A stretch of DNA of 33,954 bases. Source: a marine gamma proteobacterium HTCC2080. Lineage in GTDB: Bacteria; Pseudomonadota; Gammaproteobacteria; Pseudomonadales; Halieaceae. The position numbers were made by a program, and so were the translations under genes. Below are positions 2,602 to 25,217 of this stretch, one piece after another. Numbering within the stretch: the stretch's first letter is position 1; each line of letters begins with the position of its first letter. The notes under the pieces are model-generated. The model was not told where the DNA came from. It made no database searches and saw only the letters and a list, made by a program, of their open reading frames with translations. The stretch is from the NCBI GenBank assembly GCA_000169115.1, contig AAVV01000021.1, forward strand, positions 1 to 33,954, in the 5' to 3' direction.

Positions 2602-3948
2602 TTATCCCTCCTTCTCTATGCGCGTTAAATTGTCGCGCAGTATCGGTCCGTACTCATATTTGCCGGGGCACACATAGGTGCACAGCGCTAAGTCTTCTTC
2701 ATCAAGTTCTAGGCAGCCCAACGCTTGTGCCGTTTCAGTATCACCAACCAGCAAAGCCCTAAGCAGCTGAGTCGGTAAGATATCCAAGGGCATTACGCGC
2801 TCATAGTTACCCACTGGCACCATTGCGCGCTCCGATCCGTTGGTATTCGTCGTCATGGCACTTGGCTTCATCCCGAACCAACTCGATAGATAAATACCCA
2901 TGACCGAATGCTTGCCAGAGCCAGGGGACAACCACCCCATAAAGTCTCGATCGCGACCCTCAGCGAGCGCCGTTACCTGATTGTGATAACGACCCAAATA
3001 GGCGCTATCAGATTGTACGGCTCGTCCCCCAAGCACGGAGCCTGAGATAACCCGCACGTCTCCAGCCGCCAACTCTCCTGCAGTGAGTGCCTGCAAATCT
3101 GCACCTACGCGGGTTCGTATAAGACGAGGGCGCTCAACCTCGGGGCCGGCCAGAGCCACTACTCTATCAGTGTAAAGTTCGCCCTTTAGGAATAAATAAC
3201 CCACAGCTATGACGTCTTGGTAACCCACTGTCCAGGCTATCCTCCCAAGCGACGCGCCCATTAAAAAATGAATGTGCGTGCCAGCCAATCCAGCCGGATG
3301 CGGTCCCGAAAATTCTGCCAGCTCTACTCGAGCGTGTTCACCCTTTGGAATATCCGTGCCAGGTGCTGTACACAGGTAGGTCGAGCAATTTGCCATTTCT
3401 GCAAGAAGATCCTGCCCCAAGGTAAACGCTTCAGCATGCTCAGCGATAATCGCCGCAGGATCGGGCGCCAGTGGGTGAGTATCAATCGCCGTTATGAAAA
3501 GCCCTGCGGGTTGGCTTTCTGGATCAGCCACCTTGCCATAAGGCCTCGCGCGCAACGCAGTCCATTGACCGCTTGAAATGAGCTGGTTACGGATAGCTTC
3601 ACCGGAAAGCGCCCGCGCCTCTTGGAGACTATGCGCGCCGAAGTCTACGGGCTCCAAGCTGTCATCAATTTCAATAACCAGTGACTGGAACACCCTGCGG
3701 GCACCACGATTAAGTGCCACAACCTTGCCAGAAGCGGGAGCTGCAAAATTTATGCCCAGCGTCTTTTTATCGCTGAAAATGATTTGACCCTTGCGAACCG
3801 TATCGCCCTCGGATACGGCCATCGTGGGCTTCATACCCTCGTAATCAGCACCGACCAGCGCAACGTTTCTTACGTTTAAAGAGGAATCAATGTTGGAATC
3901 TGCTGCGCCAGCGAGTGGTATATCTATGCCGCGTCGAATTTTGATCAT
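2602..3948 (-). CDS. nqrA: Na+-translocating NADH:quinone reductase subunit A
   Basis: NqrA is the soluble cytoplasmic subunit of Na+-NQR, associated with quinone binding, and the usual first gene of the operon. The 448-residue length and the opening [16 protein letters not shown] match the family. Other family-like segments are [19 protein letters not shown] in the N-terminal barrel-sandwich-like domain and [15 protein letters not shown] near the C terminus. The start is the ATG at 3948, with only a weak GGAAG upstream. The 240 bases between it and the gap gene hold a candidate promoter and two hairpins, so the operon appears to have its own regulated start rather than being a simple extension of the gap transcript. 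Confidence 0.96.
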
Positions 3949-21282: not shown

Positions 21283-22414
21283 CGTGGTGCTCTCCCAGCA
21301 AACGCTGCGCCTCAAGTTCTAAGGGTTGAATAACCGCCGCTTTACGCCAGCCCTGCCAATGTACCGGACGGGGCACACTGCCATCACCGGTGGCAAAGCT
21401 TGCGAGCATTTCAAGCTCCCTAGAAGGCATCAATATTTCCACATTCATCCCTAATTCAAGTGCCAATGCTGCCATGGCGGGTGCCAAAGACTTAGCAAGC
21501 TTGCGCACCCGACTATTAGAAGGTGCCGGAATGGGCGCAGGCGGATCACTCAAGCCTCGCTCACTGGCACTTTCAATAAGGGTCATCAACTGCTTACCCT
21601 CTCTGCGCACAACACCCGCAGGCATGCTATCAGCCGCCGCTAGCTGTGGCATCGAGGTGGGAATTCTTTTCGCAAGATCTAGGATTACTTTATCGTGCAA
21701 AATCCAATTGCGTGGTCGGTTGCGATCGCGAGCCTTCGACTCACGCCAGTCTATCAAATCTAGCAATACGGCAAGCTGTTGAGAATTGAGTTTCCAAGCC
21801 GATTTGAATTTTGCCAAGGGGCCTCGACCACCCGTCACCATTGCGGCACTTTCCTCAAGAATCCAGGATAAATAACCGCTGGCTTCAGCCCGCGCCTCAA
21901 GTATGGGCCAGCACTGCGCCAAAAAAGTGACGTCCTGCATAGCGTAATGGCATTGCGCGTCGGTTAATGGACGCACTAACCAATCTGACTGAGTTTCGTC
22001 TTTGGCGACATCAATGCTCAACAGATCATGCACTAGGTCTCGGTAGCTCAGACCGAAGCCGAGGCCCAGCATAGCCGCAGCCTTCTGAGTATCGATCATC
22101 GGTCGTGGAAGCACACCTAGCCAGCGCTCAAAAACCTCCAAGTCCTCACTAGCACTGTGCAAAATTTTGATGAGGTCTGTTTGACGAAAAAGCTTCTGCA
22201 GTGGTTGCGTATCGTCGAGCGTTAAGGGATCAAGCAACCAACATTGCCCGGCAGCAGCAAGCTGTATCAGGGCAACTTCAGGATAAAAAGTATCTCGGCG
22301 TCTGAATTCGGTATCCACCGCCACAAATGCCTCCTGAGAAATCAGGGCGACCATCTCATTAAGCGCCGTAGTATCTCTCACCCATCGACAGCTGGTATCT
22401 GGGAATTCAATCAT
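21272..22414 (-). CDS. rnd: Ribonuclease D
   Basis: RNase D is a 3'-to-5' exoribonuclease that trims tRNA precursors and other small RNAs. The 380-residue length is close to E. coli (375). The DEDD-y active site is complete: Asp34 and Glu36 in [10 protein letters not shown], Asp91 in [10 protein letters not shown], and Tyr157/Asp161 in YAMQDVTFL. An HRDC domain follows ([21 protein letters not shown], about residues 210-270), and then a second helical C-terminal region. The ATG overlaps the recR stop by four bases, placing it in the same translationally coupled string. Confidence 0.96.
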
Positions 22415-23025
22415 TTCGAACTCTCACCCGGTAGCGGTGTGCGGCCACTCAGTGCGTGCGCAAGCGTTGAAGCATCGAGGTATTCAAGTTCCCCGCCTAA
22501 GGGAACGCCATGGGCAATTCTGGAAACTGCTATATCCTCCTGTTGCGCTCGCTGGGCAATATAAAACGCTGTGGCCTCTCCCTCCACCGTTGGATTAGTG
22601 GCTAGGATCACTTCCCTAATCGCCTCAGACCTAAATCGCTCCTCCAACCGATCGAGACCAATATCCTCTGGACCAATACCATCGATTGGAGACAGGTGCC
22701 CCATAAGTACGAAATAGAGCCCTCGGAAACTAGCGGTTTGCTCAAGTGCCATGACATCTCCGGGGGCCTCAACAACGCACAGCAAGGTGTGATCCCGACG
22801 AGGATCGGAGCACAGCTCACAGAGCTCGAGCTCTGTAAAATTTCTGCAGGATTTACAGCGGCCCACACGTTCAAGCGCCTGAGACAGTGCCCCCGACAGA
22901 GTTTCTGCCCCTTGCCGATCGCGCTCTAGCAAATGCAGTGTCATGCGTTGCGCCGACTTCGGGCCGACCCCTGGGAGGCAGCGCAAAGCTTCAATGAGGT
23001 CATTAATAGACGGAGATAGCTTCAT
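22411..23025 (-). CDS. recR: Recombination protein RecR
   Basis: RecR works with RecO (and RecF) to load RecA onto SSB-coated single-stranded DNA during gap repair. The 204-residue protein has the N-terminal helix-hairpin-helix ([15 protein letters not shown]), a four-cysteine zinc site at Cys57, Cys60, Cys69 and Cys72, and a Toprim domain beginning [15 protein letters not shown]. The cysteine positions are identical to those in E. coli. It follows ybaB by 11 bases, the standard dnaX-ybaB-recR order. Confidence 0.98.
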
Positions 23026-23036
23026 TTATAAATGCC

Positions 23037-23354
23037 CTAGATAGGCATCTTGAAGCCGTCTGGAAGATTAATACCCGCAGTTACCGAAGCCATACATTCT
23101 TGCGCAGCTGCCTGCGCGCGACGCACCGCGTCGTTGACCGCGGCGGCTAGCAAGTCCTCTAATATTTCTCGGGGCTCTTGCATTAGGGACGGATCAACCT
23201 CAACACCCGAAACCGCCATATCACCCCTCATGCGCACCTTCACCAAACCGGCTCCAGCCTCACCGGTGACCTCGACTGCTTTGACGCTCTCCTGCGCTTT
23301 CGCAAAGCCCTCTTGCATTTGCTGAGCCTGCTTCATCAAGTTACCAATTTTCAT
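23037..23354 (-). CDS. ybaB: YbaB/EbfC nucleoid-associated protein
   Basis: The protein has 105 residues and forms a dimeric DNA-binding protein in this family. It opens MKIGNLMKQAQQMQEGFAKAQ, has the central segment GLVKVRMRGDMAVSGVEVDPSLM, and a C-terminal helix running into GINLPDGFKMPI, all typical. It lies 12 bases after dnaX and 11 before recR, the widely conserved arrangement. Confidence 0.97.
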   Translation of the reverse strand: MKIGNLMKQAQQMQEGFAKAQESVKAVEVTGEAGAGLVKVRMRGDMAVSGVEVDPSLMQEPREILEDLLAAAVNDAVRRAQAAAQECMASVTAGINLPDGFKMPI

Positions 23355-23366
23355 GCTGTCCGCCCT

Positions 23367-25073
23367 CTATTGCCTAGGTCTGATACTGCCATCTACGACC
23401 ATACCGTCAAACTCAGCCAGCAACGCTGCTAGCTGGGGATCATGCTCCAAAGCGAGCTCTGCCTCGCGCTGGCGCTCGGCCGCCTGTATTTGCCGCAACC
23501 TGAAGGGCGTTAATTCACCCACCTGCCCAGCCACTATCGAGACCTCAACGGGCAATGTCAGAAGCTGGTTAAACGCCATTTCTAGGGCAGATACCTGCCT
23601 CTCCTGGAATAGAGACGCATTGTTACTGTCGATCACAAACTCAAGCCGCCTTCCTTTGATCGCCACTAATTCACAGTGCAACGCCACGCTTTGCGTTATT
23701 CCCACGAGCCCTAACTCATCAAAAAAAGCAGGCCATGACTCGGACGAGGGTAAATCGGCCGCATCATCAGTAGTCACTTGCGGTGCAACCGTTAGTGGCG
23801 GGAGATTTACCGCTGCACCTGTCGGTTCCAGCGCCCCAGAAACTGGCAACGCCGCAGCGGGCTTGATCGCGATAGTCTCCGCTTCATTTGCTGTTTTCAC
23901 CACCGGCGGCGCCGGTGGATCAGGCTTTTTTCTAGCGGGATCTACTCCTGATGGACCACCGCCGCTGCCACTGCCCGCCACTGGCATCTCTGCCGGTCTG
24001 AAGGCGATCATGCGTAGCAGCGTCATTTCCAGTGCAATGCGCGGGTCTGGAGCCACCGGTAAATCCCTGCGTCCGTTAACGGCGAACTGATAAAACAGCT
24101 GTGTCTCGTCTAAGGAAAGTGTCGCAGCCAGCTCTCGAATTTTATTTTCTTCCAACGTATCACCAGTCAGACTGCCCGGAACCATTTGAGCCAGGGTGAG
24201 CTGATGCAGTAACGAAATTACTTCCTCTAACGTAGACGCGTAATCGGGTGCGTGCTCAGCAATACTGTCGACGCAGGCCAGTATTTTTGCAGCATCACCC
24301 TCAGCGACTCGCGTCATAAGCTCTAACACTCGCCCTCGATCTACGGTACCAAGCATGTCCCTAACGTCGGCTTCTTGCAGCTGGCCTGACCCATAAGCTA
24401 TTGCCTGATCGGTTAAACTCAACGCATCCCGCATTGACCCGGCCGCGGCTCTACCTAACAGCGTCAATGCTGGGCTTTCGAACTCAACAGCTTCCTCTGC
24501 CAAAATCTTCTCTAGGTGCTCCACTACCTGCTCAGGCAGCATGTTTTTCAAATTAAACTGCAGGCAACGTGACAAAATAGTCGCGGGTAGCTTCTGTGGG
24601 TCGGTGGTTGCTAATAAAAACTTCGCATGAGGGGGTGGCTCTTCGAGTGTTTTCAGCAATGCGTTGAAGCTGTGGTTAGACAGCATATGCACTTCGTCGA
24701 TTAGGTATATCTTGAAACGTGCGCGGCTGGGTGCGTACTGAACGTTATCAAGCAGCTCGCGGGTGTCTTCTACCTTTGTTCGGGACGCCGCGTCCACTTC
24801 GATCAGGTCAACAGACCGCCCTTCGGCAATCTCACGACAAGACCCACATTCTCCACAGGGCTCAGAGCCTACCCCTACTTCGCAGTTTAAACACTTTGCC
24901 AATATCCTAGCGACCGTGGTTTTCCCCACGCCCCGAGTACCGGTAAACAAATAAGCATGGTGCAGTCGATCGTTGTCGAGCGCATTCACCAATGCCCGCA
25001 GCACATGTTGCTGCCCCACCATTTCGTGGAATGTGCGGGGGCGCCATTTTCGCGCTAACACCTGGTAACTCAT
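23367..25073 (-). CDS. dnaX: DNA polymerase III subunits tau and (by frameshift) gamma
   Basis: DnaX is the motor of the clamp loader. I start it at MSYQVLARKWRPRTF (25073), the conserved start; a longer form from 25127 would run into the SRP RNA gene. The tau product is 568 residues. Walker A is GTRGVGKT (45-52), the zinc cysteines are Cys64, Cys73, Cys76 and Cys79, and Walker B is LIDEVH at 124-129. A proline/alanine-rich linker follows from about residue 375. At codons 381-383 (Arg-Lys-Lys) the mRNA reads AGA AAA AAG, and a -1 slip there gives alanine and then a TGA. The resulting gamma form would have 384 residues, carrying the ATPase and collar region but lacking the tau C-terminal region that contacts helicase and polymerase. 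Confidence 0.97.
   Translation of the reverse strand: MSYQVLARKWRPRTFHEMVGQQHVLRALVNALDNDRLHHAYLFTGTRGVGKTTVARILAKCLNCEVGVGSEPCGECGSCREIAEGRSVDLIEVDAASRTKVEDTRELLDNVQYAPSRARFKIYLIDEVHMLSNHSFNALLKTLEEPPPHAKFLLATTDPQKLPATILSRCLQFNLKNMLPEQVVEHLEKILAEEAVEFESPALTLLGRAAAGSMRDALSLTDQAIAYGSGQLQEADVRDMLGTVDRGRVLELMTRVAEGDAAKILACVDSIAEHAPDYASTLEEVISLLHQLTLAQMVPGSLTGDTLEENKIRELAATLSLDETQLFYQFAVNGRRDLPVAPDPRIALEMTLLRMIAFRPAEMPVAGSGSGGGPSGVDPARKKPDPPAPPVVKTANEAETIAIKPAAALPVSGALEPTGAAVNLPPLTVAPQVTTDDAADLPSSESWPAFFDELGLVGITQSVALHCELVAIKGRRLEFVIDSNNASLFQERQVSALEMAFNQLLTLPVEVSIVAGQVGELTPFRLRQIQAAERQREAELALEHDPQLAALLAEFDGMVVDGSIRPRQ
23900..23949 (-). promoter_or_regulatory. Programmed -1 ribosomal frameshift signal in dnaX
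   Basis: Three elements line up on the mRNA sense (minus) strand. An AGGAG Shine-Dalgarno-like element lies at 23949-23945. Thirteen bases later is the slippery heptamer A AAA AAG at 23931-23925, in the correct zero-frame phase. Six bases further on is a hairpin, CCACCGGC-GCC-GCCGGTGG at 23918-23900, with eight perfect pairs and a three-base loop. After slipping, the next codons are GCC and TGA (23922-23920), inside the spacer. E. coli dnaX uses the same heptamer and the same arrangement, with a stop two codons on. The layout is seen; that slippage occurs in this organism is inference. Confidence 0.88.
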
Positions 25074-25107: not shown

Positions 25108-25217
25108 GGTGACCCGAGCAGCCACACCCCGGCACCCGAATCAGTAACTACCGTTGCTCCCTTCCGGGCCTGGCGGAGTTCATTACCTATCGCTGCGAGG
25201 GGACCACCCGAGTCACC
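25108..25217 (-). ncRNA. ffs: Signal recognition particle RNA (4.5S)
   Basis: The minus strand holds the conserved SRP apical hairpin: CCAGGCCCGGAAGGGAGCAA with the GGAA tetraloop at 25165-25162. The asymmetric internal loop that binds Ffh surrounds it. The outer ends pair: GGTGAC at 25217-25212 with GTCACC at 25113-25108, continued by mostly G-C and G-U pairs inward. That gives a rod of about 110 nucleotides, similar to E. coli 4.5S RNA (114). End coordinates are from the pairing and may be a few bases off. It lies 34 bases before dnaX on the same strand, an arrangement also known in Pseudomonas. The RNA works with Ffh and FtsY to target membrane proteins. Confidence 0.93.

Follow-up and report, generated by a model that had tools for sequence, protein, structure and literature searches.

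Does the dnaX gene of the marine gammaproteobacterium HTCC2080 (Pseudomonadales, Halieaceae) carry a programmed signal by which a single gene would yield both a long product, tau, and a short one, gamma? The question is posed by a compact cassette on the minus strand of contig AAVV01000021.1, the first 33,954 nt of which were analysed here and are referred to as the window. An internal Shine-Dalgarno-like (SD) motif, a slippery heptamer A_AAA_AAG in zero-frame phase, a stop codon in the -1 frame and a downstream hairpin follow one another in the dnaX linker, and we assign a probability of about 0.92 to reading this cassette as an element for programmed -1 ribosomal frameshifting of the Escherichia coli dnaX kind. 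The elements, their phase and their spacing are observed, and so is their upkeep at bases on which the zero-frame protein does not depend; judging from the aligned genes, selection is acting on a signal beyond the encoded protein.

The arrangement (Table 1) had been proposed in a sequence-only reading of the window, and AGGAG, the 13-nt spacing, A_AAA_AAG, the 6-nt spacing and the 8-bp stem with its 3-nt loop all lie on the minus strand where that reading placed them, as does the -1 stop two codons past the slip, inside the spacer. This stop truncates DnaX before the tau-specific domains: Pfam recognizes in the protein the delta2/AAA region, gamma3 (domain III, 233-357) and tau_5 (domain V, alpha-binding, 444-559), and because domain III ends at 357 and domain V starts at 444, codon 383, where the slip is predicted, falls within the linker, in agreement with the location given earlier. 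Both spacings in the window, 13 nt for the SD motif and 6 nt for the stem, fall inside the published ranges of 9-14 nt for the SD motif (PMC5009743) and 5-8 nt for the downstream structure (PMC4066793). The genome itself holds the 16S rRNA 3' end GGCTGGATCACCTCCTT, and a pattern search found in it one tRNA-Lys gene, with anticodon UUU, and zero with CUU, so that AAG would be read by tRNA-Lys(UUU) alone, although a divergent gene could escape the pattern. We propose that the anti-SD sequence of a ribosome translating dnaX would pair with AGGAG behind it while the hairpin would resist in front, and that tRNA-Lys(UUU) on A_AAA_AAG would, in a fraction of the ribosomes, re-pair one base back. A slipped ribosome would then add Ala, halt at TGA and free gamma, with domains I-III for clamp loading; unslipped ribosomes would go on to make tau, with its C-terminal domain that binds the polymerase.

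Taken by itself the bare motif is weak evidence, because AAAAAAGNNTGA, present in 1 copy in the window against 0.10 expected, also turns up at least once in 10 of 100 shuffles. In the 3.58-Mb genome there are 11 copies of AAAAAAGNNTRA and 25 of the reversed control pattern; among these 11 only the dnaX copy has the heptamer in phase deep inside a long open frame, and this copy is also preceded by an SD core and followed by the strongest fold of all 11. The case rests on conservation, not on the single occurrence.

Within the genus, 57 genomes were searched, 48 of which gave a dnaX match at E<=1e-60; 50 loci were read, and 48 of them (from 47 genomes) were assessable, L090 and L131 being the two that were not (L, G, C, f and g numbers are our handles for loci, genomes, contigs, families and genera). 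A_AAA_AAG followed by a stop at -1 codon 2 is kept in 48/48 assessable loci, the stop being TGA in 46 and TAG in 2. The flanking codons change their amino acid and retain the bases of the signal: the codon before AAA AAG encodes A, V, R, G, P or T with a third base that is always A, codon +1 after it encodes P, S, T or L with a third base that is always T, and codon +2 encodes E, D or R and always forms the -1 stop (L125 is unreadable past +2 owing to Ns). Moreover, the cassette persists through remodelling of the linker, as collar and heptamer are separated by anything from 12 to 29 codons among the genus loci. In a codon alignment of 42 genus sequences (L125-L130, partial or duplicate, left aside) the cassette ranks 1 of 431 ten-column windows, with an excess synonymous identity of 0.520 against a mean of 0.072 (sd 0.070), and Pro +4, Pro +7 and Val +8 are each encoded by one codon in 42/42 sequences. 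A strict cassette, defined as heptamer, -1 stop within 9 codons and SD core, is present in 41/46 genus loci where synonymous shuffles expect 0.29. The preservation at synonymous sites that the sequence-only reading had proposed as a check is borne out for heptamer and stop, and relatives with a broken A-run, which would have spoken against it, are absent among the assessable genus loci. L126, the second dnaX copy of genome G039, was excluded from genus counts after the 48-locus count, L125 and L126 from the test of SD-duplex and whole-fold energy, and short-tail loci from the strict-cassette, A-run, long-run and two-frame stop counts.

The two flanking elements show a signal of their own. Counting AGGA, GGAG or GAGG as an SD core, the density per site is 0.144 at a spacing of 8-15 nt and 0.007 at 20-59 nt in the genus, and 0.258 and 0.019, respectively, in the rest of the family; in the relatives the cores cluster 10-14 nt before the heptamer. 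A core at 8-15 nt is carried by 41/46 genus loci, 47/50 loci of the rest of the family and 23/38 order loci. Furthermore, the stem score exceeds that of synonymous shuffles (p<=0.05) in 44/47 genus loci, 22/50 in the rest of the family and 8/38 in the order, and the stem-loop 6 nt past the heptamer is a putative stimulator of the shift.

An identical end product would arise if the RNA polymerase, rather than the ribosome, slipped on the A-run, adding or dropping As such that either shifted frame stops early, as in dnaX of Thermus thermophilus, where this occurs on A9 (PMC1088944). Transcript slippage sends ribosomes into both shifted frames and ribosomal -1 slippage into one, and on this difference we based a two-frame stop test. 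Where an A6 run is accompanied by an SD core, a stop in the -1 frame within 9 codons is found in 40/40 of the genus (19.0 expected), 49/50 of the family (18.1) and 27/27 of the order (12.8), and a +1 stop in 14/40 (9.7), 3/50 (10.7) and 6/27 (7.8), respectively; at loci with A9 or longer runs, the stops are frequent in both frames, with 19/19 (-1; 10.0 expected) and 16/19 (+1; 6.0) in the order and 12/14 (-1; 6.8) and 12/14 (+1; 4.9) in the class. Enrichment in the -1 frame and not consistently in the +1 frame fits ribosomal slippage, and we place the window in the ribosomal slippage class. The contrast is a group result, because the window itself has a +1 stop 10 codons on from the slip; this stop, and the existence of A9-A11 linkers with stops in both shifted frames in other gammaproteobacterial dnaX genes, are what transcriptional slippage has in its favor here. 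Nevertheless, the run at the slip site has exactly six As in 47/47 genus and 51/51 family loci, compared with about nine As in Thermus (of 38 order loci, 32 have A6 and 6 have A10, and since L396 has A7 the boundary between the A6 and long-run classes is not perfectly sharp), the family shows no enrichment of +1 stops and the genus only a slight one, and a slipping polymerase would give no reason for the kept SD motif and hairpin. We regard transcriptional slippage in the window as very improbable. The two-frame stop test provides a sequence criterion for separating ribosomal from transcriptional slippage where the product is a truncation, a case in which comparative discrimination of the slippage type has been called difficult (PMC1088944).

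Coincidence, namely a Lys-Lys pair in a Pro/Ala linker next to a hairpin imposed by a Pro-Pro-x-x-Pro-Val peptide, is harder still to credit: the linker is indeed of low complexity, and genus members share the conserved peptide KK(P/S)(E/D)PPxxPV, but shuffles that keep the protein fall far short of the observed number of strict cassettes, and Pro +4, Pro +7 and Val +8 are each confined to a single codon. The least believable account derives the constraint from an antisense gene, for which there is an overlapping plus-strand open reading frame (ORF; 23353-24090, 245 codons), or from translation that starts internally after AGGAG; the matching antisense frame is open for at least 200 codons in only 1/47 genus loci (median 81), there is no ATG, GTG or TTG in the 20 nt after AGGAG, and the constraint is concentrated at the cassette; both proposals were rejected. 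Somewhat less remote, although unlikely, is a cassette that is maintained and yet yields very little gamma, as a pausing site or weak switch. Efficiency is unreadable from sequence, and one genus of the family (g6) has lost the cassette in 7/7 assessable loci, which implies that the signal is dispensable there; a pausing role, however, would give no protection to the -1 stop, and this stop persists even in loci that have TAG in place of TGA.

Several observations weigh against a programmed ribosomal frameshift, in addition to the +1 stop of the window. That ribosomes slip at this site, with what efficiency, that both gamma and tau are made and that gamma is used are inferred. The SD duplex energy beats synonymous shuffles (p<=0.05) in 0/46 genus loci; it is for this reason that the positional test was used, and position alone is enriched. 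Five of the 47 genus loci (L088, L094, L107, L117 and L128) are without a 4-base SD core, each having a G run in its place. Whole-fold energy of the downstream 45 nt reaches p<=0.05 in 26/46 genus, 12/50 family and 12/38 order loci, which in the genus and the rest of the family is weaker support than that from the stem score, and in the rest of the family 28/50 stems are individually non-significant, with none found by a simple scan in 5. The co-variation of the stem envisaged in the sequence-only reading did not materialize: among 26 distinct sequences from the genus, 6 pairs out of 8 never vary, one A-U changes to G-U and the innermost pair is loose, so that covariation is uninformative in the genus and the support for the stem comes from synonymous constraint instead. 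The synonymous shuffles and the pairwise synonymous test were run without phylogenetic correction. The Rfam model of the E. coli element, RF00382, has no match in the window or in 7 relatives, whereas the E. coli locus (L299) scores 96.8 bits. The cassette is not universal, since g6, a genus of the same family, lost it.

The distribution of the cassette was traced outward from the genus. It is present in 23 of the 24 sampled genera of the family, and the strict form was found in 49/50 loci of the rest of the family without g6 (0.40 expected by shuffling); at L136 the heptamer and SD core are present and the stop is distant. Family members beyond the genus show a slightly different layout, in which codon 3 is often the -1 stop (NNNNTGA) and the SD core lies 13-14 nt upstream (e.g., L132, L141 and L145). 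The seven g6 loci without it are L138, L143, L151, L155, L156, L160 and L177, an eighth being too short; this absence reads as loss because g6 loci nest inside cassette carriers on DnaX trees, where L177 falls separately from the remaining g6 loci, a topology that fits one loss or two. The g6 locus L138 keeps GAG AAA AAG CCT GCT and looks like a decayed cassette. In the order, 195 genomes were searched, 193 of them with dnaX, and 61 loci were read, followed by 20 more; the strict cassette was found in 22/60 loci of the rest of the order against 0.50 expected, proportions that are not frequencies because the sample favored high-scoring matches. Among named records outside Pseudomonas, heptamer, stop and SD core occur together in, among others, Microbulbifer (L022, L029), Marinobacterium mangrovicola (L018), Amphritea balenae (L026), Nitrincola alkalisediminis (L077) and HTCC2143 (L004). 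The heptamer was found in 0/38 named Pseudomonas dnaX loci, which agrees with tau being the sole product reported for P. aeruginosa dnaX expressed in E. coli (PMC3290774). Named loci shorter than the gene, such as L057 and L059, were counted as read. In the class, 113 genomes were searched, 110 of them with dnaX, and 106 loci were read in two batches: the first had 0/29 strict cassettes (0.02 expected), and the second, of 77 loci, had 1 strict (L353), 6 with heptamer and stop without an SD core, 67 with none and 3 that were too short. The idea that cassette loss follows the gain of tRNA-Lys(CUU) was not supported: by pattern, which matched 67/78 family genomes and always UUU, CUU is present in 0/78, and among the 195 order genomes there is one credible CUU gene (G147:C44:32150-32186, family f31), the dnaX of which (L234) is without the cassette; a second match, in G249, does not look like a tRNA.

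The E. coli dnaX frameshift element is well known (PMC5009743, PMC3711429, PMC4066793), and the window has in common with it (RF00382) the gene, the position in the linker, A_AAA_AAG, the -1 stop at codon 2, an upstream SD motif, a downstream hairpin and the gene order dnaX-ybaB-recR; moreover, the cassette scan used here recovers the E. coli element in the strict class. The two differ in the SD motif (AGGGAG at 10 nt in E. coli, AGGAG at 13 nt in the window), in the stem (11 bp in E. coli (PMC5009743), 8 bp with a 3-nt loop in the window) and in the end of the short product (KKE and KKA, respectively). By eye, the window stem and that of E. coli (L299, near 3765-3829) have in common an ACCGG...CCGGT core, which may hint at shared descent of the element. 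A scan of the window cassette against Rfam returned no family, the sole match up to E 10 being to a snoRNA model below threshold. T. thermophilus dnaX likewise yields a short and a long product from one gene with an A-rich slip site, but there the run is A9 with stops in both non-zero frames (PMC1088944, PMC5009743), whereas in the window it is A6 and only the -1 stop is conserved. In a reversed arrangement known from a GeneTack cluster, frameshifting also operates in dnaX, but tau needs the shift and the gene consists of two ORFs (PMC3711429), whereas tau is one ORF here; and Caulobacter crescentus also has two DnaX products, with gamma arising as a cleavage product of tau (PMC5009743), unlike the frameshift proposed here. 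According to a review, most bacteria outside enterobacteria and Thermus are without kept dnaX frameshift signatures (PMC3290774). The kind of element is known and the element in the window is well supported, and its upkeep in this lineage seems undescribed; no paper joining dnaX, frameshifting and Halieaceae was found in a search that left subscription journals mostly outside, which is weak evidence of novelty.

The products predicted from the gene have the lengths given by the sequence-only reading, 384 residues for gamma and 568 for tau; its mass for tau (about 62 kDa) agrees with the computed 61.6 kDa, whereas that for gamma, about 41 kDa, is lower than calculated (Table 1). The -1 product is predicted to end in ARKKA. 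The start of dnaX was taken as the ATG at 25073, giving 568 codons; a longer ORF of 586 aa with a GTG start exists, but the ATG is likelier because the longer ORF begins within the signal recognition particle (SRP) RNA gene, whose end lies ~40 bp upstream of the ATG. SRP RNA is found beside dnaX also in L084, L086 and L145. A second potential slip site in dnaX domain V, T_TTT_TTT in phase (window 23721-23727, minus strand) with a -1 TGA directly after it in a stretch encoding AFFDE, was rejected, as it is found in just 5/47 genus loci and is probably coincidental. With respect to the genus loci themselves, L104 and L126 are two dnaX loci in one genome bin (G039), identical over 96 nt around the heptamer and probably the result of a mixed assembly, and L088 (G041) has one TAA within the aligned dnaX region, a disruption that is either real or due to assembly.

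Table 1. Coordinates of the dnaX cassette, gene products and neighbouring genes in the window
Feature	Position	Strand	Basis
Internal Shine-Dalgarno-like AGGAG, 13 nt ahead of heptamer	23945..23949	-	read from sequence
Slippery heptamer A_AAA_AAG, in zero-frame phase	23925..23931	-	read from sequence; AAAAAAG at 23931-23925
Spacer CCTGAT, 6 nt	23924-23919	-	between heptamer and stem
-1 frame stop TGA, second codon past slip	23920..23922	-	read from sequence
Downstream hairpin, 8 bp, 3-nt loop, 6 nt past heptamer	23900..23918	-	read from sequence
Stem 5' arm CCACCGGC	23918-23911	-	sequence
Hairpin loop GCC	23910-23908	-	sequence
Stem 3' arm GCCGGTGG	23907-23900	-	sequence
dnaX, full-length tau, 568 aa	23370..25073; stop codon 23367-23369	-	translation; Pfam; NCBIfam gamma/tau models
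Predicted gamma, 384 aa, 42.0 kDa	23920..25073	-	383 zero-frame codons, then -1 frame Ala + TGA
SRP RNA gene, upstream of dnaX	25113..25209	-	RF00169, 68.5 bits
ybaB/ebfC, downstream neighbour of dnaX	23037..23354	-	Pfam PF02575
recR, downstream neighbour of dnaX	22411..23025	-	Pfam RecR/Toprim

Alternation between ribosomal and transcriptional slippage among dnaX homologues is known in principle (PMC1088944), and the loci with long A-runs extend the comparison in this direction. Linker runs of at least A9 occur in 9/60 order loci against 2.89 expected (sd 1.40, maximum 7 in 200 shuffles) and in 14/103 class loci against 4.03 (sd 1.61, maximum 8). Such runs are found in 0/112 strict cassette loci and 23/153 others; in order and class alone the counts are 0/23 and 23/140 (Fisher p 0.047, not corrected for phylogeny). 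In 26/32 long-run loci both shifted frames reach a stop within 9 codons, against 6.3 expected, an excess to which local base composition could contribute; these loci include L302 and L360, with a G+C content of 0.71 and 0.68. The A9-A11 linkers (L200, L202, L216, L224, L230, L236, L239, L248, L249, L302, L360 and L378-L387) have the run mostly near the collar, and most have stops in both shifted frames nearby. Among the 20 loci added in the order, A9 was found in 4/4 new loci of f24 and A10 in 5/5 of f34, three of which have identical DnaX N-terminal parts, and in 1/1 of f39; A6 with an SD core was found in 3/3 new f36 loci; the five new f33 loci comprise 1 strict cassette, 2 with heptamer and stop without an SD core and 2 with nothing, and the two of f21 comprise 1 strict cassette and 1 (A7) without an SD core. 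In the literature, none of the matches listed describes dnaX runs of A9-A11 from these orders, in a search with little coverage of subscription journals. These observations suggest that the A9-A11 loci are candidate dnaX genes with Thermus-type transcriptional slippage in several gammaproteobacterial families, although A10G contains A_AAA_AAG and ribosomal slippage may be possible there too.

We consider it slightly more probable than the contrary that the Gammaproteobacteria around this lineage keep a short DnaX product and repeatedly swap the route to it, among a ribosomal cassette, an A9-A11 transcriptional run and neither. The ribosomal state, with A6G, SD motif, hairpin and only the -1 stop conserved, is that of the family of the window and many others; the A9-A11 state has no SD motif and stops in both shifted frames; and genus g6 and the Pseudomonas loci sampled show neither state. 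On a quick tree of 102 rows with many weak forks, the A9+ state requires at least 6 changes and the ribosomal state at least 14; on the same tree f34 combines one cassette carrier with six A10 carriers, and the A10 family f3 pairs with the cassette carrier f28 with 87% support. This turnover of mechanism is a more interesting lead than the element in the window itself. If it is real, close relatives in two states, within f34 and between f28 and f3, would allow direct tests of why selection keeps gamma and of the path from one mechanism to the other.

A marine family keeps at synonymous sites a dnaX signal that the standard RNA model does not match. The role of gamma has long been controversial (PMC5009743), and related genomes with a ribosomal cassette, an A9-A10 run or neither offer a natural comparison for this role.

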